Shown here piece by piece: positions 1,525 through 26,904 of a stretch of 27,706 nt of DNA. The DNA comes from a virus. The stretch spans positions 1-27,706 of IMG/VR virus record IMGVR_UViG_3300027791_000105. One strand, written 5' to 3'. Position numbers and translations under genes: made by a program. Numbering within the stretch: position 1 is the first letter of the stretch; each line of letters begins with the position of its first letter. The notes under the pieces were generated by a model, which ran no database searches, was not told the origin of the DNA, and saw nothing but the letters and a program-made list of their open reading frames with translations.

Positions 1525-2385
1525 CTAATTTGGATTTATTGGCTTTTGCCTTGATTTTATTTTATTTAGAACTCTGTTGTACATCTTTTGGTATGTATCA
1601 TCAAAGCCTTCAACCGGCTCAAGTACACCATCTAGTTCAAATATTGGTGTCTTTTCTTTTGGTCCACAAAATATGTCAATAATGCCACCATTTGAGAATA
1701 TGTTTATTTTGTTACCAAAGAAGTTATGTGGATTATAATTACGTACAGGCAGCCACCACATTATATAGTCAATTTCGTGTAACATATTCCACATATACTC
1801 TAAATGTGTAGTACTATTGTTAACTTCGATTAACATTTGTGGTCTACATCTCTTTATAGTTTCTGTTGCACCAAATAGTACTTCCTTTTCAAAGCCTTCA
1901 ACATCAATTTTTATAAAATCTACACGTCCAAAGTTTAAACTATCAATTTTAATCATCGGCTTTGTTTCGTACAAACCTCCAGGGTTGACTTCAAGTACAC
2001 TACACTCTCCATAATTACCCGGAAGACTTGGATTAAAAGAACTTATAATGCTTTGTCCGTTTCGATCTCCAACAATGTTTCCGTACACTTGTACATTCTT
2101 ACAACCATTTTGTTCAATGTTTTTTACTAGTAAGTTTCTATTGAACTCATTAGGCTCAAATGATGCTACATGCCCTTTAAATGCATGTTTTGCAAACCAG
2201 ACTGTGTGCAGTCCAATATTAGAACCAATGTCTAAAACAAAGTCGGTAGGCTGTACTATGTGATTTAGTAACAAAAACTCGTTTTCTGAGTACTCGCCGT
2301 AGAGCTCTAGGCTCTTACCGATGATTATATCATTAGTAAAATAACTAAACAACCCGTGCTTACATAACTTAGTTTGAATTCCCAT
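1525..2385 (-). CDS. FkbM-family SAM-dependent methyltransferase
   Basis: A 286-residue class I methyltransferase. The SAM-binding motif VLDIGSNIG lies at 50-58, the ribose-binding acid follows in ASFEPNE (E77), and the family-typical segment FIKIDVEGFEKEVLFGA is near 155-172. FkbM-type enzymes usually O-methylate sugars or polyketides. Phage copies sit among glycan genes, so a sugar of the host surface or of a phage-modified glycan is the likeliest acceptor (inference). Its ATG overlaps the stop of the nucleotidyltransferase-cupin gene (TAATG), making the two a coupled pair. The Shine-Dalgarno is weak, consistent with coupling. The C-terminal 80 residues contain a Trp/Asn/Phe-rich stretch (MWWLPVRNYNPHNFFGNK) and no membrane segment. 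Confidence 0.85.
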   Translation of the reverse strand: MGIQTKLCKHGLFSYFTNDIIIGKSLELYGEYSENEFLLLNHIVQPTDFVLDIGSNIGLHTVWFAKHAFKGHVASFEPNEFNRNLLVKNIEQNGCKNVQVYGNIVGDRNGQSIISSFNPSLPGNYGECSVLEVNPGGLYETKPMIKIDSLNFGRVDFIKIDVEGFEKEVLFGATETIKRCRPQMLIEVNNSTTHLEYMWNMLHEIDYIMWWLPVRNYNPHNFFGNKINIFSNGGIIDIFCGPKEKTPIFELDGVLEPVEGFDDTYQKMYNRVLNKIKSRQKPINPN

Positions 2386-3143
2386 TAATCTCTGCGTTCA
2401 ATGTCATCTTCTGTACAGGGTACGCCAATTTGTACCTCAATTACCTTACATGACTCATTTGTATTATTACTTGCTTGATGCCATACTTTTTTACTGATGG
2501 TGTAGACGGTGCCATGTGCAGTTAATGTTATTACATCTTGTACCTTGTTGTACTCCGTAGTCATCTGACATGATCCTTGTACTACATTCCATCGTTCGTC
2601 TCTATGCTCGTGTCTTTGCATACTTAACTGTTTGCCTGGTAATATCTCTAATTCTTTTACTTTATAGTCGGGTCCTTGGTCTATTGTTCTAAACCAACCC
2701 CAATTTCTGTAGACCTTGTCACCGTTCCATTTAGCAAGTAAGATGGAGCTGCTATTCTGCTTGTCTTCTCCTCCAACACCAAACTCAAAGTTTAAGTTTT
2801 TATCATCCATTGTCATCTCCGGTATGTTATCTGCAGTTCTATCGCCACCGTTGGCAAATATAATACTACTGTCAGGCCAGTTTTCTCTAACCTGCTTTAT
2901 TGCATCAATTGCAGAATTATCTGAGTCATCAAATAATACATAATCATCGACCATTCTTAAGTTTTGTATAATACCTACTCTATCAAGTAACGGCATAAAC
3001 GGCTTACCTTTTTTACTGGTTAACCACTCGTCGCTATTGATGCCTACTACTAGTTTGTCGCCAAGTTTTTTTGCTGACGCAAGGTATGACAAATGCCCAG
3101 AATGTAGTGGATCAAATCCACCTGTTACTAAAACAATCTTCAT
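2385..3143 (-). CDS. Cytidylyltransferase-like / cupin (mannose-6-phosphate isomerase-like) fusion
   Basis: A 252-residue fusion. Residues 1-135 form a nucleotidyltransferase of the RfaE/TagD superfamily: the N-terminal strand MKIVLVTGGFDPLHSGH carries the H14-x-x-H17 nucleotide-binding signature, VGINSDEWL follows, and SSSIL (131-135) fits the C-terminal phosphate-binding position. Residues 146-245 form a cupin like the C-terminal domain of type II mannose-6-phosphate isomerase/GDP-mannose pyrophosphorylase: RNWGWFRTID, then LPGKQLSMQRHEHRDERWNVVQG with H178 and H180, and a later WH (H222). Together they suggest activation and handling of a sugar phosphate as an NDP-sugar. The exact substrate cannot be read from the sequence. 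A putative AAGGA ribosome-binding site lies about 11 bases before the ATG. It overlaps the FkbM gene and follows a terminator-like hairpin. Confidence 0.85.
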   Translation of the reverse strand: MKIVLVTGGFDPLHSGHLSYLASAKKLGDKLVVGINSDEWLTSKKGKPFMPLLDRVGIIQNLRMVDDYVLFDDSDNSAIDAIKQVRENWPDSSIIFANGGDRTADNIPEMTMDDKNLNFEFGVGGEDKQNSSSILLAKWNGDKVYRNWGWFRTIDQGPDYKVKELEILPGKQLSMQRHEHRDERWNVVQGSCQMTTEYNKVQDVITLTAHGTVYTISKKVWHQASNNTNESCKVIEVQIGVPCTEDDIERRD

Positions 3144-10705: not shown

Positions 10706-12271
10706 TTAAAACAAAATAAACGGCATAGGTTCTATTATGTCATCAAGACTGTCTTTCATGCGTTCTTCGATACTAGCATCATAATTACGAACTACGTTTG
10801 TCATCCGTATTGCTAGTACTAAACTCATTACTAGATCGTCTTTTTCGCCTGGCTTTGCACGATAGCTGTTACCACTTGCAACAAACGACTTCATTTCACT
10901 AATAAGATTCTTGCTTTTAACTACAAGTCTGCCTGTTTCCACTAAAGATTTCATCTTTGCACAAGCAGATAACTTACTTCGGTGTGTAGTATTAAATCCC
11001 TTACGAAAACGTTTAGAGTTTCCATGCGATCTAGGTTCACTTAGAAATACACCAGGTATATTTTCCTCACCAATTTCTGCAATACTAACGAGTGCTGCTT
11101 CACCGAGTGTATTATTTTCAACACTATAATATACGTCATTTGGCTCGCCTATCATATCAGCCAAATAACTACATATCTCTCTCATAATTGCAACTTGTTG
11201 CACAATAGGTGTCTTATTATGCATCCACTCTGCTACTTGTATCAAGTTTGGTAATTCTAGTATCTGTATTGCAGAGTTATCTCCGCCGGTACCTAAACTT
11301 GGATCAAGTGCTACCATGTATGTTTGTCCTTTAACCGGCTTCTTATACCAACGTACTTGTCCTTGTTTCTCAATTGGGTCAACACCTTGTAACTCTGCTA
11401 ACCTAACTGCATTAATTAATGTTTCTTCGTAGATAATAGGTTCACATTCCATTTCACGTCTGAAACGTTCTTCTCCAATTCTACCACGTTCTTCTAGTGC
11501 CCATTGCTCATCTCTATCTGGATGCTCTTGCCATAAGCATTTGTAAGGAGCAAATCCGTTTGTTCCTGCATCACTTTCGTTACCATACTCATCAACATTA
11601 TCGTTTGCTTGTGTCCATAATAGCCAAAACTGATCTTCATCACTGTTAGGTGTACTTGTAATAATTGCACTACCACCTGTTGCTAGTGTAGGAGATATTG
11701 ATGTCCAAAATTCTGTAGCAATAGTATTACGAACAAATGCAAACTCATCACAGTACAGTAATGTAATACTCATACCTCTTCCTGTGTTATCAGTTGTTGC
11801 TTGTGCTACAATTCTACTTCCGTTTTCAAATTCAATTGAACCTTTGTTGTAGTTAGTAACACCTGCTCTAATATGATCTGGACAAAGTTCATATGCGTAT
11901 CTAATACGTTGCATAATTTCTTGAGCACCACTGAACTTGTGTGCTGCAATAAGAATAGTACTATCAGCAATAAACATTGCATGCCAAAGCAAGTAACCTG
12001 CGGCGGTAGTAGTCTTACCCATCTGTCGGCTCAGTAAGTTAATACTAAAACGATTATTGTGATAACTATTAACAAGAATCTCCTGAAAAGGAAAAGGCTT
12101 GTACAACATTTTTCCTTGAACAGGATGTTGTATGTGAAAGTAATTTGACATGAAGTGATTTGGTCCATTGGCACTATCGGCACAACTTATAAATTCTCCT
12201 AACTGCTCTTCAGAAAATTTCTGTGTTTTGTGGGCTCTTTTTACTAAAACCCCATCTAAACTCTTGCTCAT
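10706..12271 (-). CDS. 17: Terminase large subunit gp17
   Basis: A 521-residue DNA-packaging motor of T4 gp17 type: an N-terminal ATPase and a C-terminal RNase H-fold nuclease that acts at the prohead portal to cut and pump DNA. Walker A is SRQMGKT (81-87), Walker B with the catalytic acid is LLYCDE (171-176), and the coupling motif STPNS lies at 206-210. The nuclease acids are D323 (ALDPSLGTGGDNS), E385 (SVENNT) and D479 (EKDDLVMS). It is shorter than T4 gp17 (610 residues), mainly at the ends. GAGAAG precedes the ATG, and a late-type box GATAAATA lies about 40 bases upstream. The small subunit is encoded some 2.3 kb upstream in the same direction, separated by three small genes and an opposite-strand HNH gene. 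Confidence 0.96.
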   Translation of the reverse strand: MSKSLDGVLVKRAHKTQKFSEEQLGEFISCADSANGPNHFMSNYFHIQHPVQGKMLYKPFPFQEILVNSYHNNRFSINLLSRQMGKTTTAAGYLLWHAMFIADSTILIAAHKFSGAQEIMQRIRYAYELCPDHIRAGVTNYNKGSIEFENGSRIVAQATTDNTGRGMSITLLYCDEFAFVRNTIATEFWTSISPTLATGGSAIITSTPNSDEDQFWLLWTQANDNVDEYGNESDAGTNGFAPYKCLWQEHPDRDEQWALEERGRIGEERFRREMECEPIIYEETLINAVRLAELQGVDPIEKQGQVRWYKKPVKGQTYMVALDPSLGTGGDNSAIQILELPNLIQVAEWMHNKTPIVQQVAIMREICSYLADMIGEPNDVYYSVENNTLGEAALVSIAEIGEENIPGVFLSEPRSHGNSKRFRKGFNTTHRSKLSACAKMKSLVETGRLVVKSKNLISEMKSFVASGNSYRAKPGEKDDLVMSLVLAIRMTNVVRNYDASIEERMKDSLDDIIEPMPFILF

Positions 12272-13068: not shown

Positions 13069-13992
13069 TTACTTTGACATTAAGTCTTTTAGCTGTTGTG
13101 CTAGTTTAGCTGCCAATGGATTATCTCCATCTTTATTATGCATTTGTGCTTTTGGTCTGTTTAGTCCTCCGGACAATTTGTTTAATTGCATATCCGCATC
13201 CATGTAATCTTCGTCTGGTGAGTTAGAATACTCGTCCAGTTCAGTAGTTGCCTGTGGTGTGTGTTCTAGCCCAGCTAAGGACATAAGTGATGCTAAGTCA
13301 TTGACTGCAACTTCTACTGTTTCTTGTACTTCTGGCTCTTCAGATGCTTCACTTACTCCGCCACCTGTATCCATATAATTTTGTATAACCCAATTATGGA
13401 ATTCTTCCATTTCTTCTAATTCTGCCATGTCTGCATCATCAACTTCTGTACCGTCTGTGTAAAACACAGGAGCATTCACTGTAAACATCTGATCACTGAT
13501 ATCGTCCATATCATAATCTAGTTTGTTCATATCAACTTCTTTATCTTTAAACATTATTGGTTGGTCGTTTTGTTGAATAAGTTCAGAAACTATTTCTTCT
13601 TCTACTGGCTCTTCTACTGATTCATATTCCATTCCGTTATCGTATTCATGATTACTACGGAATTCTTTTACAAAGTCTGCAATAGTATCACCATCTAAAT
13701 ATCTAATTAGATCAGCAAATATAGGATGATCTGGATCACAACCTACTTCATCACATAAATCCAAAATTGGATCTGCAAAAGAACCTACTGCTTCTGTTTC
13801 AATACCTTCATTTGCTTCTTTAGAATCTTCCCAAAATTTGCCAGCTTCTTCATCACTACCAAGTGTACTTGAGTGCATTTTGATAAAGTCTTCTTTGCTA
13901 TTATCTTGTGCATCAATATCTATATCAGACATTCTGCTTTCAGACACATCTTTTTCCTGGCCTGAATATTTTAATAATGTTGTTAAATCCAT
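13069..13992 (-). CDS. Acidic protein of unknown function in the head/packaging block
   Basis: A 307-residue very acidic protein, rich in Asp and Glu. I use the ATG at 13992, which has AGGAAT 7 bases upstream, and not the TTG 30 bases before it. Visible parts are an N-terminal MDLTTLLKYSGQ; a compact cysteine-containing helical segment, DPILDLCDEVGCDPDHPIFADLIRYLDGDTIADFV (74-108), that looks like a conserved domain; then disordered Glu-rich sequence; LMSLAGLE (236-243); and a basic, helical C-terminus (AKLAQQLKDLMSK). Its high charge and location between gp16 and gp17 would suit a scaffold-like or head-associated role, but this is inference. I do not recognise the family. Confidence 0.75.
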   Translation of the reverse strand: MDLTTLLKYSGQEKDVSESRMSDIDIDAQDNSKEDFIKMHSSTLGSDEEAGKFWEDSKEANEGIETEAVGSFADPILDLCDEVGCDPDHPIFADLIRYLDGDTIADFVKEFRSNHEYDNGMEYESVEEPVEEEIVSELIQQNDQPIMFKDKEVDMNKLDYDMDDISDQMFTVNAPVFYTDGTEVDDADMAELEEMEEFHNWVIQNYMDTGGGVSEASEEPEVQETVEVAVNDLASLMSLAGLEHTPQATTELDEYSNSPDEDYMDADMQLNKLSGGLNRPKAQMHNKDGDNPLAAKLAQQLKDLMSK

Positions 13993-14002
13993 TTTTTTAT
14001 TC

Positions 14003-14503
14003 CTATTTTTCTTTTTTAGCAAGCACTACTTCAGGAGTTCCACGTTCTAGCTCTTTAAGCATATTTGTGTTGTACTCGTCGCCAAATGTTGCATCTTTTT
14101 TTTCTTGGTTATATTCGCTGTCTAGCAAAGGCTTGTACTCTTCTTCTTTAGCTCCAGCTGCTTCTTCTCTGGCAATTTCTTCTGGGTGCTCAGCGTTAAT
14201 AACGACTAAGTGCGACCCTGAAATGCCGGCGTATTCTTGTAATTCATTTCTTAGTACTTCTGAAGTACACGGATAATTAACTGCCACGTCAATCATGCTA
14301 ACTTCTGAATTTCTTAATGTTTGGAAATCCATTGGATGTTCCTGGATAGGTGTTGTTTTTGGCTTACTCATGTCAGTTACGCTGTACTTGCCAAGTGCCA
14401 TTTCAATTCTTTCAACTTGCTGATCTTCAAGAGTTCCGGCATATTTAATACGGAATTTGTATTCTTTTTTACTTTCAGTTAAGTATTCTTTAAATGATTT
14501 CAT
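14003..14503 (-). CDS. Conserved T4-like protein, possible processed head protein
   Basis: A 166-residue protein. The N-terminus, MKSFKEYLTESKK, has the look of T4-type prohead leader peptides, with LTE matching the (L/I)-x-E prohead-protease signature at residues 8-10. A compact domain follows: YKFRIKYAGTLEDQQVERIE, a beta-strand/helix pair, then KPKTTPIQEHPMDF and SEVSMIDVAVNYPCTSEVLRNEL with a final strand, HLVVINAE (about 12-105). The last 50 residues are Glu/Lys-rich and probably flexible. GAGG lies upstream of the ATG, and a GATAAATA late-type box sits about 30 bases before it. The layout resembles a cyanophage protein of unknown function, known to me only as a pattern. The virion role is inferred. 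Confidence 0.7.
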   Translation of the reverse strand: MKSFKEYLTESKKEYKFRIKYAGTLEDQQVERIEMALGKYSVTDMSKPKTTPIQEHPMDFQTLRNSEVSMIDVAVNYPCTSEVLRNELQEYAGISGSHLVVINAEHPEEIAREEAAGAKEEEYKPLLDSEYNQEKKDATFGDEYNTNMLKELERGTPEVVLAKKEK

Positions 14504-15837: not shown

Positions 15838-17247
15838 TTATGTTGCTAGTTGTGTTGGCAAACCTTTAGTTATTTTTGATACACCTTTTGGACTTGGACT
15901 AAGATTTCCACCAAATGCTTTTCCTAGTTCGCCTTTAAATGATCCCGGTCCGCTACCCTTCATAAAATTGTTTGCTTTGCCTAAATCATTTTGAAGGTTA
16001 GTTTGTAGTGCTGGATTATCAACAAAACCACTTAAATTGCCAAATGTTTTGGTTATTGCTGAAAGTGCATTTGAACCTAAGCTAAATGCTTGTGCAGCAC
16101 CGCCTTCTAACGATTGCATGTTAAACTTACCTGCTACATTACCTAATGCCTGCTTTAAGTTAGCACCTACTTGAGCGCCATTACTATTAATTGCGTTCTG
16201 CGAAGGTGGTATAAAATTACCAGCCACTGTTCCAACTTTAGGTACGTTAGGCAATGGATTAGCACCTCCGGTGCCGCCTGATCCACTACTTGGAAACTTG
16301 AAATCACCAATTGGGTTATTTCCTCTAAGTGCGTTGGTTGCCATTCCAGTAAGCTCTGATTTTAACATACTTTTAAGATTGGCACCTTTTAAATTCTGAG
16401 CACCCCTTAATCCTGTAACAACTGCTCCTGCTAGGTTTCCGCCAGCTAAGTCGCTACCAATGCTACCTGCAGCATCAACAAGTCCTCCAGGTCCAAACAT
16501 ACTAGTAGTTCCTCCGCCTTGCGGTGTTAGTGGGCTTGCAGTTTTATCGTAATGCAGTTCTCCAAATCCCGCCGGACCATCTCCTGCAACAAGACCTGAT
16601 CTGTACTTAACAGTTTCAAACTGAACTGTCATTTGGTTCTCTAGTAATCCTGCACTATCTGCATAATCGTGTCTATCATGTTCAAAACTTTGAATAATAG
16701 GGTTAACTAACCAATACTCTGTATACTTCTTTTGGTATATACTGTAAATTTTTATGTGACTAAAGAAGTTACCCGAGTTTCTATCTAATCCCCAGTTACG
16801 TGCTGAATTAGGCATTTTTGAGTATGTGTCTTTTAACGAGTAAGTTCCGCTACTTTCGTAATTAGGATCGTTGTTATAGTATGCATAATACGCATACCAC
16901 ATGTTTCGAATTATATCACTGTTATCATCGTGAAACGTAAGACGTACTGGCTCGTAATTTATCTTATTCATTGTATAACGTCTTCTGTTATACTGATTAT
17001 GTGTTTGTAAATCGTAGGAATATTTAGGCAGGTCTACACTCTTTACGAGAAAACTTGCCTCTAATTGCTCACTTCCTGAAAAGGAAAATCCTAGTCCTGG
17101 GTTAATTCCAAACGTGCAGTGGAATAAAAATCTATGCTTCGGAGCAAGACGGTAATTACCGTCAACAAAGGTTTTAGATGCGTGTCGAAAATCTCGAACG
17201 TTATCCCCAGTTGAAAGAGCAGTTAGAAAAGAGTTTAATACACTCAT
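15838..17247 (-). CDS. Tube-fold protein with Gly/Ala-rich tail (baseplate-tube junction candidate)
   Basis: A 469-residue protein directly after the tail tube gene (18-base gap, AGGAT Shine-Dalgarno). Residues 30-220 read like a second gp19-type tube beta-fold: APKHRFLFHCTFGINPGL, FLVKSVDLPKYSYDLQTHNQYNRRRY, PVRLTFHDDNSDIIRNMWYAYYAYYNND, and the closing strand LENQMTVQFETVKYRSGL. In T4-like phages such duplicated tube folds are gp48 and gp54, which connect baseplate and tube, so that is the best candidate role. From about 235 onward the sequence is Gly/Ala/Asn/Pro-rich low complexity with short amphipathic segments, longer than in those T4 proteins; it may fill the tube lumen or be disordered. 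The assignment to gp48 or gp54 is not certain. Confidence 0.65.
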   Translation of the reverse strand: MSVLNSFLTALSTGDNVRDFRHASKTFVDGNYRLAPKHRFLFHCTFGINPGLGFSFSGSEQLEASFLVKSVDLPKYSYDLQTHNQYNRRRYTMNKINYEPVRLTFHDDNSDIIRNMWYAYYAYYNNDPNYESSGTYSLKDTYSKMPNSARNWGLDRNSGNFFSHIKIYSIYQKKYTEYWLVNPIIQSFEHDRHDYADSAGLLENQMTVQFETVKYRSGLVAGDGPAGFGELHYDKTASPLTPQGGGTTSMFGPGGLVDAAGSIGSDLAGGNLAGAVVTGLRGAQNLKGANLKSMLKSELTGMATNALRGNNPIGDFKFPSSGSGGTGGANPLPNVPKVGTVAGNFIPPSQNAINSNGAQVGANLKQALGNVAGKFNMQSLEGGAAQAFSLGSNALSAITKTFGNLSGFVDNPALQTNLQNDLGKANNFMKGSGPGSFKGELGKAFGGNLSPSPKGVSKITKGLPTQLAT

Positions 17248-17265: not shown

Positions 17266-17883
17266 TTAACCTGTAACAACCTCACCAATTGTTCTTGCTA
17301 CTGTAGCACCAATTCCAGTACCGATTGGTGTCTGTACTGCGTTATCAAAACGAATTGTTAAAGCAATAGTTGCTGCTTCACTACTCGAATAGTTTAAATC
17401 ACCGTAGTTTACATTGGTAATGAAACAACCGTATAATTCCCAAGTCTCAAGTACGTTTGGTGCACTAGCGCCGTTTCCGCCATCTAATACTTCACAACGT
17501 GTGATAAACTTGAAATCAATACCAGATGCTGCACTTGACTGTTCCATCATATCAAACTGCTTCTGTGTTTGCTCACCAACTAATTTTGCAACTTGACCTG
17601 ACGCATCGTCACGTAAGTTAACTGTACATGGATCCCATGTATGTTTACCTTGGATATACACTTTACTGTTATAGATATCAATCGGAACATCTTCAAATGT
17701 TACGGCTGGACGTGCAAAATCAATTACTTGTTTTGTTAATTCGCTACGTGGAGTTGAAACACCAAAGTTTTCAAAACTTACACGGAAGCGATATTTTAAT
17801 TTCGGCATTAACAGGCCTTGAGCTGATGCGGACTGATCCGATGCTAAAGGTACTGTAAATTTGCTTAATGAACTTACTGACAT
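17266..17883 (-). CDS. 19: Tail tube protein gp19
   Basis: A 205-residue major tail tube protein that stacks as hexameric rings inside the sheath. The pattern is typical: a flexible start, then KLKYRFRVSFENFGV (29-43), LTKQVIDFARPAVTFEDVPIDIYNSKVYIQGKHTWDP (49-85), CTVNLRDDASGQVAKLVGEQTQKQFDM (86-112), and the final strand ATIALTIRFDNAVQ. Its length is close to T4 gp19 (163 residues) with a slightly longer N-terminus and tail. TAGGAG lies before the ATG, and a CTAAATAC late-type box is about 25 bases upstream, so it can be transcribed independently of the sheath gene. A stem-loop on the sheath stop codon separates the two messages. Confidence 0.92.
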   Translation of the reverse strand: MSVSSLSKFTVPLASDQSASAQGLLMPKLKYRFRVSFENFGVSTPRSELTKQVIDFARPAVTFEDVPIDIYNSKVYIQGKHTWDPCTVNLRDDASGQVAKLVGEQTQKQFDMMEQSSAASGIDFKFITRCEVLDGGNGASAPNVLETWELYGCFITNVNYGDLNYSSSEAATIALTIRFDNAVQTPIGTGIGATVARTIGEVVTG

Positions 17884-17940: not shown

Positions 17941-17964
17941 CACAAGCTCTAGATAGAGCCTGTG
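17941..17964 (-). other. Stem-loop on the sheath stop codon (mRNA processing or stabilising element)
   Basis: A 10-bp stem with one G.T pair (CACAGGCTCT / AGAGCTTGTG) and an ATCT loop. The sheath TAG stop (17949-17951) lies at the loop edge. No U-tract follows, so it is not a standard terminator. Confidence 0.65.
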
Positions 17965-20900
17965 TTTTGTATGCGAACTGGAATATAAATGTATTCAACT
18001 GCCTTAACAGGTTCAACTGCAATATCAATATACAATTCGTTACGATCGATTCTATCGTTTGTGTTGTTTGATTCATCACAAACTACTAGGTAATCATATA
18101 AGCCTCTTTTTGCAACTAAGTCATTCATTAACTGTTCAACTACTTGTTTGACTTCATCTCTTGTTAACTTGTCATTTGGCTCAAATACAAACGGCTTAGT
18201 AATAACTGCTAATCTTTCACGTACATAAGCAACTAAACGTGCTACGTTAATACGATCTAATGCACTTGCAGTTGCTGTGCGTGTTTTGTTACCATAGTTA
18301 AGTATTCCATTACCTGGAAAGAATGATATCGGGTTAATACTGTTACTGTACAATGTATCACGTAAACTTTCACGTACACCTGTTGGAGTAAACTCACCTG
18401 TTACAGTATCTAAGTAACCAAGTCCTGTAGCATTGTCAACTATACCACGTCTTACACCTGCTGGTGCAAACCATGGAAAACTTGCTTCATCTGAACGTAT
18501 TAATGTTCTTAAAAGCATATGACTTGCTGGAACCATAATACTGTTTCCATCTAAGTCAGTTGAAATACCACTTGGATAAAATACACCCATATACGTATCT
18601 GCACTAACTAGTCCGTCATCACCATTATCTGATGCTAAGTTACTGTTTAATGCCCAGTTTTGAATATCAGTACTGTTTGCCGCTAATCTCATAGGAGCGT
18701 CAGCAACAATAAAGCCTGTGTTACGTCTATCGTTATTTAATGCAATCAAGTTTGCCATTAGCTCTGGATAACCTGGTGCTGATAATACGTTAAAGTTTCT
18801 TTGATCTTCACGTAACTCACCACTTGTATCAACTACTGATTTTAGTTTTTCTACAATAACTGCACGAACTGCGTTTCTGCCCATATAAGGTGAACCATCA
18901 GTTTTGTTACCTGCAGTACTTACCCATGCATCTGCTTCGTTTGGTAATACTTTACCCGGAAACGCATCTGCATTAAAGTGATCTTTTCTAAACTCTTTAA
19001 TGTTGTAACTACTACGTCTTGTGTTAAACAATAGTGTACCACGTGGATAAAGCGACTTGCTTGGTGCGTCTAAATCAACTACGTCACTTGTTAACAATGT
19101 TTTAATTGTTGCTACTGTGCCTGTTACAACATCTGTTGTTGTATCGCCCATGTAACGTGCATCAGCAAATAAGATACCATCACTACTTGTTTGATCACTC
19201 TTATCAATTACTACCCACTTCTGCTCGCCGTCAACAGTTTGATAACGTTTTAAAAACGGAAAGTTTTCTAAGTCACTTGTGTCAACCCATAAATCACCAT
19301 TAACTAGTGCGGATGCATCTGACTGTTGTGTCGGAGCACTTGCACTTATAAAAGGTCCATTTGGATTAGTTTGACTTAAATCAAATCCTCTTGCATCAAC
19401 TGTTACGCCTTGGTAACCTTTCCAGGTTGTACCGTTATGAATCATAATGTCAATTTCATTAGTAACATTTTGATACCACATACGTTTATTTGCTGGGTTT
19501 GCAGTAGGTTGTGTTGCACCAACAACATATACCAACGGTTGGAAATTACTTAAAATAATTTCTCCTGTTGTTAGGTCATCTCTTGCATATGTATTTGTAT
19601 TTGTAAGTCCTGCATCTGCAATCGGTGTACCTGTTGTTTCGTCTAATTTAACAAAACCACCTAAACTATGTGTAATAGTAATTGCACCAGTTGCTTCTAA
19701 CTTAGCAGTAACGTATGTTATTCCTGCCGCATTAAAGTCATTTACAAATAACTCTTTAGTTGCTCCACTTAATACAATATTTGTAGATGTTGTTGCTACT
19801 GTATTCTTACCAGAGGATATAACTGTAAATGCGTCAGATGCAGTAAATGTAGGAGCAACTAAGTTACCTGTGGCAACTGTTTCACCTTTTATTTTACGCT
19901 CGTATAACTTGTAAGTCATTTCGCCTGTTGTTGTAGATTCTGCCATTGCAATTACTTTGCCTTTTGCAATGTTTAAACCACCGCCAATTGCATCAACATC
20001 ATACATTGCAGCTTCTTCTGCCTTGTATAACTTAACTGCTTTGTCTGCAAATAAATCTGTTATTGAACTGTATGCACTAACATCAATGTCTGCGCCTGTG
20101 TTTGAACTTGTTGTTTTAATCCAAATACTACCAGTTGGTCTTGATGCAGTATCACCGTTACGCCATTCTGGAATTGCAGTGTGTGGATCAATTTGAACTG
20201 CTGGAATATAAAATGTTCCTGCTGATATACCAAGATCAGTTAATATCGTACCACTTCCTGAAATTATAATTCTTCCACTTGCAGTAGATGAAGTTCCAAA
20301 CAAACGAACGTTTCCTGCAGTACTTAACGCGGCAGTAACACCTGTTACTGCGGCTGCATTAATGTCTGCAACTACTTGTGCGGCAGTTGTACTTGTCATT
20401 GAGACTGCATTGCCGTTAACTGTAAGAATGTTTCCTACTGTAACTGTTGGGTTTGTCACTGTACCTTGTAAAGTTGACCATGTGTTGTACCATGAATCAA
20501 CACCAACAACTTGCCAACCTGCACTTGTTTTTAAGAACAGTTTGTTGTTTGTTGTTGTTGCATCAATCGCATAATCAGCTGTTGATCCAATTTGTGCTTT
20601 TGGTACACCACCTGAAACATCTGTTGTAGCTGTAATTACAATTGGAACTTTATTAGTGAATGTCTGTGTACTTGAGGACCATTGAAAAATGCCCCATTTA
20701 CTTTTGGTAGAGTTTAACCAGTGTGTTCCGTTAGCCGGATCACCTGCAGGACGTCCTGCACTTCCTGTTAACTCGCCTAAATCAATATCTGCACGAACAA
20801 CGTATGCTCTGTTGCTTACGCCTAGTAAACTGTACGCAGCCATTAAGCCATGCTCGTTTAATTCGTAACCATGTAAAGCCGTTCCGCCTGTGCTTTGGTA

Positions 20901-21125
20901 ATATGAAGGTTCTCCAAAAGTTGTTACCAACTCTCTTTGTGAACCAATTAAATATGCTTTTTCAGCATTTGCTTTTGTAGTTCCACTGGCTGTTCCGCCT
21001 GTGGTTGGATCTTTCTTGTCTTGGGCTGATGCTATCACTAACATTGGTACTGTACCAACCGCGGTACTTGCGTACTGTGATTCATCTATAACCTTGACCT
21101 CGATACCGGGTGAAATAAGTGCCAT
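17949..21125 (-). CDS. 18: Tail sheath protein gp18, giant form
   Basis: A 1058-residue contractile sheath subunit (T4 gp18 has 659). Conserved ends are clear. Residues 1-115 begin LISPGIEVKVIDESQYASTA and hold the N-terminal handshake arm. Residues 680-1058 carry the core, with FRKDHFNADAFPG, APGYPELMANLIALNNDRRNTGFIVADAP, WFAPAGVRRGIVDN, NPISFFPGNGILNYGNKT and RINVARLVAYVRERL, ending in the strand-exchange arm VEYIYIPVRIQNTGSI. Between about 120 and 660 is an insertion containing two modules like the flagellin/hook IN motif (223-303 and about 425-505) and several short Trp-containing motifs. These probably form surface knobs on the tail. GAGGT precedes the ATG and a perfect TATAAATA late box lies upstream. 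It is the most expanded gene in the window. Confidence 0.95.
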   Translation of the reverse strand: MALISPGIEVKVIDESQYASTAVGTVPMLVIASAQDKKDPTTGGTASGTTKANAEKAYLIGSQRELVTTFGEPSYYQSTGGTALHGYELNEHGLMAAYSLLGVSNRAYVVRADIDLGELTGSAGRPAGDPANGTHWLNSTKSKWGIFQWSSSTQTFTNKVPIVITATTDVSGGVPKAQIGSTADYAIDATTTNNKLFLKTSAGWQVVGVDSWYNTWSTLQGTVTNPTVTVGNILTVNGNAVSMTSTTAAQVVADINAAAVTGVTAALSTAGNVRLFGTSSTASGRIIISGSGTILTDLGISAGTFYIPAVQIDPHTAIPEWRNGDTASRPTGSIWIKTTSSNTGADIDVSAYSSITDLFADKAVKLYKAEEAAMYDVDAIGGGLNIAKGKVIAMAESTTTGEMTYKLYERKIKGETVATGNLVAPTFTASDAFTVISSGKNTVATTSTNIVLSGATKELFVNDFNAAGITYVTAKLEATGAITITHSLGGFVKLDETTGTPIADAGLTNTNTYARDDLTTGEIILSNFQPLVYVVGATQPTANPANKRMWYQNVTNEIDIMIHNGTTWKGYQGVTVDARGFDLSQTNPNGPFISASAPTQQSDASALVNGDLWVDTSDLENFPFLKRYQTVDGEQKWVVIDKSDQTSSDGILFADARYMGDTTTDVVTGTVATIKTLLTSDVVDLDAPSKSLYPRGTLLFNTRRSSYNIKEFRKDHFNADAFPGKVLPNEADAWVSTAGNKTDGSPYMGRNAVRAVIVEKLKSVVDTSGELREDQRNFNVLSAPGYPELMANLIALNNDRRNTGFIVADAPMRLAANSTDIQNWALNSNLASDNGDDGLVSADTYMGVFYPSGISTDLDGNSIMVPASHMLLRTLIRSDEASFPWFAPAGVRRGIVDNATGLGYLDTVTGEFTPTGVRESLRDTLYSNSINPISFFPGNGILNYGNKTRTATASALDRINVARLVAYVRERLAVITKPFVFEPNDKLTRDEVKQVVEQLMNDLVAKRGLYDYLVVCDESNNTNDRIDRNELYIDIAVEPVKAVEYIYIPVRIQNTGSI

Positions 21126-22197: not shown

Positions 22198-22941
22198 TTA
22201 GCCCATGACCCACGTCATTGGCATTTGTCCATCAACTAGGTTGAGCAAGTCTGTCTCAAGTTTGTCAAGTTCTGTCTGTGCTTCTACTTTGAGTGCATCA
22301 CCATTTAAACTTGTGCCACCTTGCGGACCGGCAATAGTTGCAAATTTGGAACGTGCTTCACCTAACATATACTTGCTTCTTGCTAAAGCATAATCGTATA
22401 CCCATGGCTTACAACGTGTATCAGTTAACAATGCTGTATCAGGTCTAGTGTTATACATCCATAACATTACTGTTTCTCCATCAGAGCGAACATTTCTAAT
22501 TATTGTTAACTTCTTAGTAACAGGATTAAAAGTAAAGTTAATATATGCTCCAAACATACGTCCGGCCATTTCTTGATACTGCTTGTAAAAATCGTAAGTA
22601 GCAAGGCCACCCATTTTTCCAGCAGTTAACATATATGTATTCATGTAACCTGCTTCAAAAGGCTCAAATACACTTCCTACATTACCTGTAGTACTACGAA
22701 AGACTTGTCTAACGTTCTCTACTTCATTTGGTAACGTGTACTCTGTCTGTCCTGTAACAAGAGCTAAAAACCCGTAACTTTCTTCAACTGCATTACTGCT
22801 TTTTTGACGATACACATCTAGTGCTTTCTGGAAAGCCATTTCATAGTGTGCTGCATCAAGTTCAACGTCAACCATGCCTCCACCGAGACTAAGTTCAATG
22901 TAATTAAAAAGTTTTTGTTTTTCAGTTGTTAAGTCAGACAT
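22198..22941 (-). CDS. 13: Neck protein, gp13-like
   Basis: A 247-residue protein whose N-terminal half fits the T4-like gp13 neck (head-completion) pattern. It has an initial helix, LFNYIELSLGGGMVDVELDAAHYEMAFQKALDVYRQKSSNAVEESY (10-56), and a strand region GQTEYTLPNEVENVRQVFRS. Then come beta-rich segments, a helix-rich C-terminus with a long helix (ALKVEAQTELDKLETDLLNLV), and a final PMTWVMG. In T4, gp13 and gp14 form the neck that seals the filled head and receives the tail. AAGGAT lies upstream of the ATG, with a CTAAATAG late-type box. Its partner gp14-like gene lies 1.4 kb away on the other strand, an uncommon separation. The distinction between gp13 and another neck adaptor is by pattern only. 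Confidence 0.7.
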   Translation of the reverse strand: MSDLTTEKQKLFNYIELSLGGGMVDVELDAAHYEMAFQKALDVYRQKSSNAVEESYGFLALVTGQTEYTLPNEVENVRQVFRSTTGNVGSVFEPFEAGYMNTYMLTAGKMGGLATYDFYKQYQEMAGRMFGAYINFTFNPVTKKLTIIRNVRSDGETVMLWMYNTRPDTALLTDTRCKPWVYDYALARSKYMLGEARSKFATIAGPQGGTSLNGDALKVEAQTELDKLETDLLNLVDGQMPMTWVMG

Positions 22942-24301: not shown

Positions 24302-25495
24302 ATGCCCAGACTATCACTATGGAAGCCAGAACGCAACAAAGACTTTACGTTTTTTGACAATAGAATACGTGAAATGTTTACTATTGGCGGTACTGGTATT
24401 AATATACACAAGTACTTAGGTCCTGATACTGCTAACAATGACGGTACAGATTCAACTCAACCCAACTATGCTAGCCAAAGTGCAACAAACATACAAGACT
24501 TATTGTTCCTGGAAAACCGTGATCGTAAGTACGATTCTAGTATATACCAACTCAGAGGTATTTATAACGTAAGTGATATTGACTTTGATTTAACGCAATT
24601 TGGACTGTTTTTACAGAACGACACGCTCTTTATTAGTTTTCACATAAACGATATGATTAACTCTATTGGTAGAAAACTTATTAACGGAGATGTATTTGAG
24701 TTACCTCATTTACGAGACTTTTATCCACTAGATAGTGCATTGCCGGCAGCATTACGTCGATATTATGTAGTACAAGATGCTAGTAATAGCTCAGAAGGGT
24801 TTAGTCCAACGTGGTATCCGCATGTATGGCGTGTTAAATGTACACCATTAGTTGACAGCCAAGAATATAAAGATATCTTTGATGATACTGCAAAGAAAGC
24901 AGACGGTTCAGATGTTACTGGTACTGATAACAAGTTAAGAGATTTACTAAGTACATACAAGAAAGAACTTGAAATTAATACTGCTATTATTGCCGAAGCA
25001 GAAAAAGAAGTTCCTAAAAGCGGTTACGATACTGCTAAATTCTTTGTTGTTCCTACAGAGGCAGATGGAACTCCTGCAGATGCAGAAGAAACTGAAAGTG
25101 CGGATAACACTGGTTTGAAAGCCAGTAGCACGTTGGTAACAGCAGATGAGGTACCTACTACACCGTTGCATAACGGATATCAAGGACACTTAGTAGGCGA
25201 CGGGTTAGCACCGAATGGATTTCCTGTTACGCCAGGTATAGCGTTTACTCATAACCCTAGTGTAGGTGACTATGTGCTAAGACTTGACTTTACACCAAAT
25301 AGATTATTTAGATATGATGGTGCTAGATGGGTTAAAGTTGAAGATGCCGTTCGTACAAGTACAACAGGTGGACTTGGCACTACGCAAAAAGACCAGTTTA
25401 TTGAAAATACTAAACAATATAAAGATGATGCAAATCAAACATTTAATAGTAGACAAACACTAAGTGATGCACTAAAACCAGAGGCAGATAGTTAA
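24302..25495 (+). CDS. 14: Neck protein, gp14-like
   Basis: A 397-residue protein of the T4-like neck family. The conserved N-terminal 185 residues include FFDNRIREMFTIGGTGINIHKYLGP (17-41), NIQDLLFLENRDRKYDSSIYQLRGIY (63-88), DIDFDLTQFGLFLQNDTLFISFHINDMI (92-119) and GRKLINGDVFELPHLRDFYPLD (123-144). This is the segment I associate with marine T4-like gp14. It is longer than T4 gp14 (256 residues). After a helical middle it has an acidic Thr/Ala-rich linker, then RLDFTPNRLFRYDGARWVKVED (327-348), a Trp motif that recurs in other virion proteins here. AAGGAT serves as ribosome-binding site. Its TAA overlaps the gp15 ATG, so the two are coupled. The gp14 label is by pattern. Confidence 0.7.
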   Translation: MPRLSLWKPERNKDFTFFDNRIREMFTIGGTGINIHKYLGPDTANNDGTDSTQPNYASQSATNIQDLLFLENRDRKYDSSIYQLRGIYNVSDIDFDLTQFGLFLQNDTLFISFHINDMINSIGRKLINGDVFELPHLRDFYPLDSALPAALRRYYVVQDASNSSEGFSPTWYPHVWRVKCTPLVDSQEYKDIFDDTAKKADGSDVTGTDNKLRDLLSTYKKELEINTAIIAEAEKEVPKSGYDTAKFFVVPTEADGTPADAEETESADNTGLKASSTLVTADEVPTTPLHNGYQGHLVGDGLAPNGFPVTPGIAFTHNPSVGDYVLRLDFTPNRLFRYDGARWVKVEDAVRTSTTGGLGTTQKDQFIENTKQYKDDANQTFNSRQTLSDALKPEADS

Positions 25496-26904
25496 TGGCT
25501 AGACAATTTTTTTACGATAACCAAATACGCAGATTCTTGCTACAATTTGTACGAATGTTTAGTAACTTCCAAATTGAAACAGGAGCTCCGGATGCATCTG
25601 GCATTAGAGATCTGCTTACAGTACCAGTTCGTTACGGAGATATGAGTCGTAATGCAGCCGCTATACTTAGAGAAAACAGTGAGAATAAAGTACTAGGTGC
25701 TCCGATGATGAGTTGCTATATCAGTAGTTTAAAGTATAGTAGAGAACGTGTGCAAGAACCAAACTTTGTTGATAAGTTACATGTTAGACAACGAAAGTAT
25801 AACGCAAGTACTGAAACATATAGTCGCACTCAAAGTAATGCAATTACTGTTGAAAGACACATGCCAGTTCCTTATAATTTAACCATGAACTTGGATATAT
25901 GGACTACTAATACTGAAATGAAGTTACAGTTGCTTGAGCAAATGCTGTGCTTGTTTAATCCGTCACTTGAGATACAGAGTACTGATAACTATGTTGACTG
26001 GACTAGTCTAAGTTTAGTTGAGTTAACTGATGTTAACTTTACTAGCAGAACAGTTCCGACAGGAACAGAAGATAGTATAGATGTTGCAACACTAACATTT
26101 GATATGCCAGTATGGTTAACAATGCCTGCTAAAGTTAAAAAGATGGGTGTCATACACAAGATTATTAACAGTATATACGACGGTAATGGAGATCTAGTAA
26201 GTTCTATAGGAAAAGATGACTTAGTGTTAGGACAACGATTAGTTGTTACACCGGGCCGTTACGGTACAATATTATTAAACGGACAAGCAGAGCTTGTTGA
26301 TTATAGTATAGAGCCAACGTCTGATACTATACATACTAGTCAAATTCTTAAAGAGTCAGCAGGTAAACCAAAATGGAAATCAGTACTTGAACAATACGGT
26401 GCAGTTAATCCTGGTATTACACAGTTAAGATTTATACAACCAGACGATAGCGAAGTTATAGGAACAGTTGCATACCATCCAACTGATAGCCATGTACTAT
26501 TAATAACTATTGATTCTGACACAATTCCTACTAACAGTTTAACTGCAATAGATGCAATTATTAAGCCTAGCACAGTTAACGTAGATACATTTGTTAAAAA
26601 TACAAACTCAAGGTACTTAATACTTGAAGATATTAAAACTGCCGCAGGTAAAGATAGTTTAGATAATGACATTAGTTCTAGTTTTTGGCAAAGCACTGGT
26701 GGCGCTGACTTTAGTGCAAGTGCAAACGATATAATACAATGGGACGGGTCTCAATGGAGTGTATCTTTTGATAGTTCAGCTACATCAGTTATTAATTATG
26801 TAACAAATGCAACTACCAGCATACAGTACAAATGGACTGGTACTGCATGGTTAAAGAGCTTTGAAGGTGAATACAAGCCGCAAGATTGGCGAGTAGTTAT
26901 CTAA
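25495..26904 (+). CDS. 15: Tail completion/sheath terminator protein gp15
   Basis: A 469-residue protein whose first 215 residues match T4 gp15: FFYDNQIRRFLLQFVRMFSNFQIETG (5-30), LLTVPVRYGDMSRNAAAIL (40-58), ISSLKYSRERVQEP, PVPYNLTMNLDIWTTNTEMKLQLLEQMLCLFNPSLEIQ (125-161) and ATLTFDMPVWLTMP. gp15 caps the tail tube and sheath and joins the tail to the neck. T4 gp15 has 272 residues, so about 200 C-terminal residues are extra. They include two Trp-motif repeats, IIQWDGSQWSV (413-423) and IQYKWTGTAWLKS (443-455), and end at DWRVVI. It starts by a TAATG overlap with gp14. Its stop overlaps the convergent gene's stop by 4 bases. Confidence 0.88.
   Translation: MARQFFYDNQIRRFLLQFVRMFSNFQIETGAPDASGIRDLLTVPVRYGDMSRNAAAILRENSENKVLGAPMMSCYISSLKYSRERVQEPNFVDKLHVRQRKYNASTETYSRTQSNAITVERHMPVPYNLTMNLDIWTTNTEMKLQLLEQMLCLFNPSLEIQSTDNYVDWTSLSLVELTDVNFTSRTVPTGTEDSIDVATLTFDMPVWLTMPAKVKKMGVIHKIINSIYDGNGDLVSSIGKDDLVLGQRLVVTPGRYGTILLNGQAELVDYSIEPTSDTIHTSQILKESAGKPKWKSVLEQYGAVNPGITQLRFIQPDDSEVIGTVAYHPTDSHVLLITIDSDTIPTNSLTAIDAIIKPSTVNVDTFVKNTNSRYLILEDIKTAAGKDSLDNDISSSFWQSTGGADFSASANDIIQWDGSQWSVSFDSSATSVINYVTNATTSIQYKWTGTAWLKSFEGEYKPQDWRVVI

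Follow-up and report, generated by a model that had tools for sequence, protein, structure and literature searches.

The window, by which we mean the whole stretch of 27,706 nucleotides analysed here, is a fragment of a virus genome, and its ORF at 17949-21125 on the minus strand encodes a contractile tail sheath protein of the T4 gp18 type (Table 1). According to a Pfam search, residues 954-1052 of the 1058-residue product match the sheath C-terminal domain PF17482 (E = 4e-17), while phrog_10581, the full-length sheath family of PHROGs, covers residues 1-1056 (E = 4e-220). The model of the full chain returned T4 gp18 (9mkb) as its top Foldseek match (E = 1e-22), with the KP1 sheath also among the matches, and tube and neck genes, the usual company of a T4 gp18-type sheath, lie in the neighbourhood. 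The two tube genes are adjacent paralogues, the 469-aa copy matching tube profiles in its N-terminal half only.

Among isolates, the terminase of the window is closest to those of PA5oct (52% identity) and Sinorhizobium phage Phosso (50%). Since, in addition, contigs carrying relatives of the sheath reach 307 kb, the source phage probably belongs to a jumbo-type lineage. Elsewhere in the window, the terminase large subunit (521 aa, 10706-12271, minus strand) matches only the second half, from position 435, of the 890-aa profile phrog_36964, and a 317-aa ORF in the structural region (13069-14022, minus strand) has no PHROG match. The product of 2385-3143 (minus strand), which matches a heptose/nicotinamide nucleotide adenylyltransferase family and whose C-terminal part weakly matches cysteine dioxygenase, possibly represents an auxiliary metabolic gene.

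Table 1. Sheath gene, its parts and associated genes (window coordinates unless a contig is named; neighbours assigned by PHROGs).
Feature	Position	Strand	Remarks
Tail sheath protein gene (gp18-like)	17949..21125	-	1058 aa; AlphaFold2 pLDDT 89.2, pTM 0.72
Conserved N-terminal part, residues 1-112	20790..21125	-	aligned to T4 1-83
Inserted multi-domain block, residues 113-650	19176..20789	-	about 540 residues; folds alone in model
Trp-containing beta region W1/W1b, residues 113-222	20460..20789	-	invariant W136, W204
Flagellin-IN-like module IN1, residues 225-304	20214..20453	-	profile and model
Middle region, residues 311-423	19857..20195	-	conserved W335; high-confidence beta strands and helix
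Flagellin-IN-like module IN2, residues 424-512	19590..19856	-	profile and model
Trp-rich region W3/W4, residues 513-650	19176..19589	-	W550, W568, W613, W637; rejoins core
Conserved C-terminal sheath part, residues 651-1058	17952..19175	-	PF17482 and T4 alignment
Tail tube gene	17266-17883	-	205 aa; sheath neighbour
Tail tube gene	15838-17247	-	469 aa; sheath neighbour
gp13-like neck protein gene	22198-22941		sheath neighbour
Sheath stabiliser-like gene	25495-26904		sheath neighbour
Giant virion structural protein (phrog_10938)	L174:470-13495	+	one IN module at residues 2619-2689

The initial annotation had described nucleotides 19130-20770, which correspond to sheath residues 119-665, as an insertion of about 540 residues without a counterpart of this size in T4. 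In relatives two shared motifs bound the block, RADIDL at about residue 113 and GILFADAR at about residue 650. On the N-terminal side, RAD111-113 aligns with RAV81-83 of T4 gp18, and on the C-terminal side residues 819-1057 align with T4 gp18 424-650 (E = 1.5e-26). Between these anchors T4 gp18 has about 340 residues and the window sheath about 706; with both ends aligned, the net excess over T4 gp18 is about 395 residues, not 540. The extra block is thus real, but the corresponding site in T4 is not empty, being occupied by domain I of T4 gp18.

Tryptophans conserved in the relatives punctuate the block. They had been placed after the repeats, where W550, W568, W613 and W637 indeed lie, but W136 and W204 precede the repeats and W335 stands between them. 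By hhalign, the stretches containing W136 and W550 resemble each other (86%, E = 5e-6), and the middle region gave no significant family match. Isolate phages match the sheath at about 34-46% identity, chiefly in the core. The block itself was matched by tblastn in 16 phage records only, over its last third or less, so that the W3/W4 region is nearly the sole part of it found in isolates. This combination of a conserved core with an unmatched block indicates either an exchange of the outer part or a much faster divergence of it.

Two segments of the block, given as residues 223-303 and 425-505 in the initial annotation and recovered by profile as 225-304 and 424-512, are true duplicates. A profile-profile alignment of IN1 with IN2 yields a probability of 98.6%, E = 6e-16 and a score of 82.8, far above the best score of 20.2 from 100 column shuffles, so the repeat is not due to chance. 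The two modules share the predicted fold bb-a-bbb-a, with a short last helix: strands 233-236 and 239-242, helix 248-257, strands 263-267, 273-277 and 285-290 and helix 294-298 in IN1, and strands 432-438 and 445-451, helix 457-466, strands 472-476, 482-486 and 492-498 and helix 501-504 in IN2. In a tree of the modules the IN2 copies of the family form an exclusive group, and the IN1 copies group together with one sequence from a further two-module sheath. This separation into two clades indicates that the duplication predates the family.

The comparison of domain number across related sheaths that had been proposed as a check showed none to three IN modules. With an iterated profile, exactly two were found in each of 42 non-redundant close relatives, two in the sheaths of Atu_ph07 and Phosso, and one in PA5oct and in many sheaths of about 940-1020 aa. 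Five sheaths of 1226-1367 aa had three, and many relatives with sheaths of about 790-860 aa had none. The count for Atu_ph07 is less certain, because a search of its whole record with the module alignment gave nothing at E 0.01 and only the broader iterated profile detected the modules. Sheaths bigger than that of the window (1226-1367 aa) occur in L134, L150, L161, L156, L162 and L106, and five of these six are the three-module ones.

Modelled alone by AlphaFold2 (residues 113-668), the block reaches a pLDDT of 87.5, and block means stay above 90 through almost the whole of residues 132-533, where its secondary structure agrees at 98% with that of the full model; in the W3/W4 region confidence drops without the core. 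The prediction, named beforehand as a possible refutation, is thus confident, and since the fold is the same with or without the core, the segments lie outside the core sheath fold. T4 gp18 was not among the best fold matches of the block modelled alone.

The suggested likeness to the flagellin IN motif held up. With the block searched as a whole, the best PDB fold match is D2/D3 of Pseudomonas aeruginosa FliC (E = 3.3e-3, probability 0.99), and flagellar proteins, comprising FliC D2/D3, FliD caps and Vibrio cholerae flagellins, occupy ranks 1, 2, 4 and 6-10, among others. These E-values are modest: Foldseek gave no PDB match of the block below E 0.001, and the TM-score of the best flagellar match, normalised by target, is 0.36. 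Against PDB sequences the module profile placed Vibrio flagellin B second (E = 0.037). Pfam assigns the matching Vibrio segments to PF07196 (Flagellin_IN), and the module profile scores 27.8 against them, whereas the highest score among 300 shuffles was 16.7. At the fold level, as predicted, the resemblance to flagellin is therefore good, and in sequence it is suggestive. Formal members of Flagellin_IN the phage modules are not, as the curated cut-off of PF07196 gave no match in the sheath, its 42 relatives or 22 module sequences, and more permissive Pfam thresholds did not bring one up either.

Other candidate families were discarded. No Ig-like Pfam family matched the 42 relatives, even at permissive thresholds, at which weak matches to Phage_holin_3_2 (0.002-0.06) and BclA_C appeared that we take as chance. 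A SUN1 entry was the best PDB sequence match (0.01 with the module profile, 0.002 with the block profile); we also judge it a chance hit, because the fold search lends it no support.

The same module occurs in another virion protein. Four related contigs (G001, G002, G003 and G007) carry it, at E-values from 1e-10 to 2e-17, in a reading frame of about 4185-4348 aa, which in G002 encodes the virion structural protein phrog_10938 with matches to CBM5/12 and FG-GAP; homologues of phrog_10938 are present in PA5oct, Atu_ph07 and Phosso. In the window and in the initial set of related loci, genes other than that of the sheath gave no IN module. The BFVD fold matches of the block comprise baseplate J-like proteins besides a sheath.

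Insertions comparable to this one have been described in relatives, so that the refuting condition named in the initial annotation, identical insertions already known there, applies in part. In the 112 sheaths modelled by Evseev and colleagues in 2022, the additional domains are positioned away from the tube, Ackermannviridae and jumbo phages have sheaths of five or more domains, and the analogy between sheath and flagellin architecture was already remarked on (PMC9230969). In our models, the two termini of the window sheath together build the core and further domains are added to it, at least three domains in all, which is type 3 as defined there (PMC9230969). A 2025 paper reports that the lateral sheath domain of Adele, phiTE and Sf14 is common to nozzle proteins, auxiliary capsid proteins, FliD and flagellin, names 8erm and 5h5w as sharing its fold, and assigns it no direct part in contraction (PMC12846349). 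Both 8erm and 5h5w are among the fold matches of our block, flagellin 8erm at the top. These type 2 sheaths, compared by description, likewise carry a domain outside the core with the FliD/flagellin 8erm fold, but a single lateral one as opposed to the longer, two-copy block here.

The nearest parallel among isolates is the type 3 sheath of Atu_ph07 (1086 aa, listed with "5+" domains in PMC9230969), encoded by the same gene, with a core about 45% identical, the same insertion site and two IN modules; however, its block is recognisable by BLAST near its end only and its modules have diverged (E = 5e-9 and 7e-10). The sheath of PA5oct (Arenbergviridae, 879 aa), which belongs to the isolate group closest by terminase, is 46% identical in the core but 179 aa shorter, with one weak IN module. 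In BFVD, the predicted structure of the 1037-aa sheath of Myoviridae sp. ctWb16 (A0A8S5SZY6) aligns over the whole block (E = 3e-37, TM-score 0.63), although the two are only 23% identical in sequence there. T4 gp18 shares the core fold and the anchors and differs in length. Like the modules in fold, profile and order of elements, the D2/D3 domains of flagellin and FliD also lie on the outside of a helical filament, but they belong to another core protein and assembly. The block is thus a conserved, duplicated instance, in an uncultured clade, of a kind of multi-domain sheath that was already described.

We favour, with a probability of about 0.6, a type 3 sheath of a large myovirus related to PA5oct and Atu_ph07, in which the flagellin-IN-like block would project as an outer layer that adds lateral contacts and weak adhesion. 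The N- and C-terminal parts would form an ordinary contractile core, and the block, predicted to be a string of beta-rich modules, two of them diverged flagellin-IN-like copies, would branch off where T4 has its smaller outer domains. Most likely it projects outwards from each subunit as a second outer layer round the tail, where it would probably add lateral contacts and a weakly adhesive surface, as the outer domains of flagellar filaments do, and would take no part in contraction. Display on every subunit, proposed earlier, is suggested by analogy with published sheaths, both the modelled ones (PMC9230969) and that of phiKp24, whose outer component points outwards (PMC9700779). Adhesion, stabilisation or both are plausible functions. 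Assuming a tail of about 25 rings, like that of phAPEC6, each virion would carry about 300 IN modules.

Conservation bears on what the block does. All 42 close relatives, which are 53-87% identical, have kept it. Pairwise identity among them averages 0.73-0.76 in the parts nearest the N- and C-termini (0.73 in residues 1-112), 0.67 in residues 651-868 and 0.50-0.57 in the IN modules and the middle region. For 24 pairs more than 85% identical, the median dN/dS is about 0.18 in the block (0.12-0.20 by region) versus about 0.09 in both core parts, and no sign of diversifying selection was seen at the region level. The block is therefore maintained under purifying selection, with a rate of evolution about double that of the core. 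Selection on every part of it would also be expected of a purely structural cement, which would tie adjacent subunits to one another in the extended tail and play no part in binding. Such a cement has precedents in the outer domains of flagellin, which can dimerise into an outer sheath (PMC8931119), and in phage 812, where, as cited in PMC9230969, an additional domain touches an adjacent subunit and has been proposed to make the disk more stable. But many relatives manage with the shorter sheaths that lack an IN module, conservation is among the lowest in the IN modules, unlike in an interface-rich layer, and the outer component of phiKp24 is not involved in subunit-subunit interactions (PMC9700779). 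We regard a pure cement as possible but clearly the less probable account.

A bolder version of the favoured reading, in which a full flagellin-like outer shell, with two IN-type modules per subunit common with the giant virion protein, mediates attachment along the whole tail, seems unlikely to us. The block might instead anchor the hair-like whiskers of related jumbo phages, since tail or capsid hairs are reported in CBB, phAPEC6 and Atu_ph07, and enlarged sheaths occur in hair-bearing phages or their close relatives. The hairs of phAPEC6, however, sit at three annular positions only and not on every ring, those of Atu_ph07 are mainly on the capsid, and in GAP32, closely related to CBB, a similarly large sheath comes with no reported hairs, which makes such an anchor improbable. 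Least probable is a decoy that imitates the flagellin or surface of the host as a protection from the defences of hosts or grazers: the fold does resemble flagellin outer domains, but the likeness is to a fold that many phage and flagellar proteins share (PMC12846349) and not to any single host sequence, and the dN/dS values at the region level do not speak of diversifying selection.

The block shows that flagellin-IN-like outer domains, which are costly for a sheath, were duplicated and retained within a large branch of jumbo-type phages, most of it uncultured. The family provides natural comparisons, with 42 non-redundant two-module members and others that have none to three. The finding fits the view that sheaths and flagellins alike combine a conserved core, which forms the filament, with outer domains that can be exchanged.
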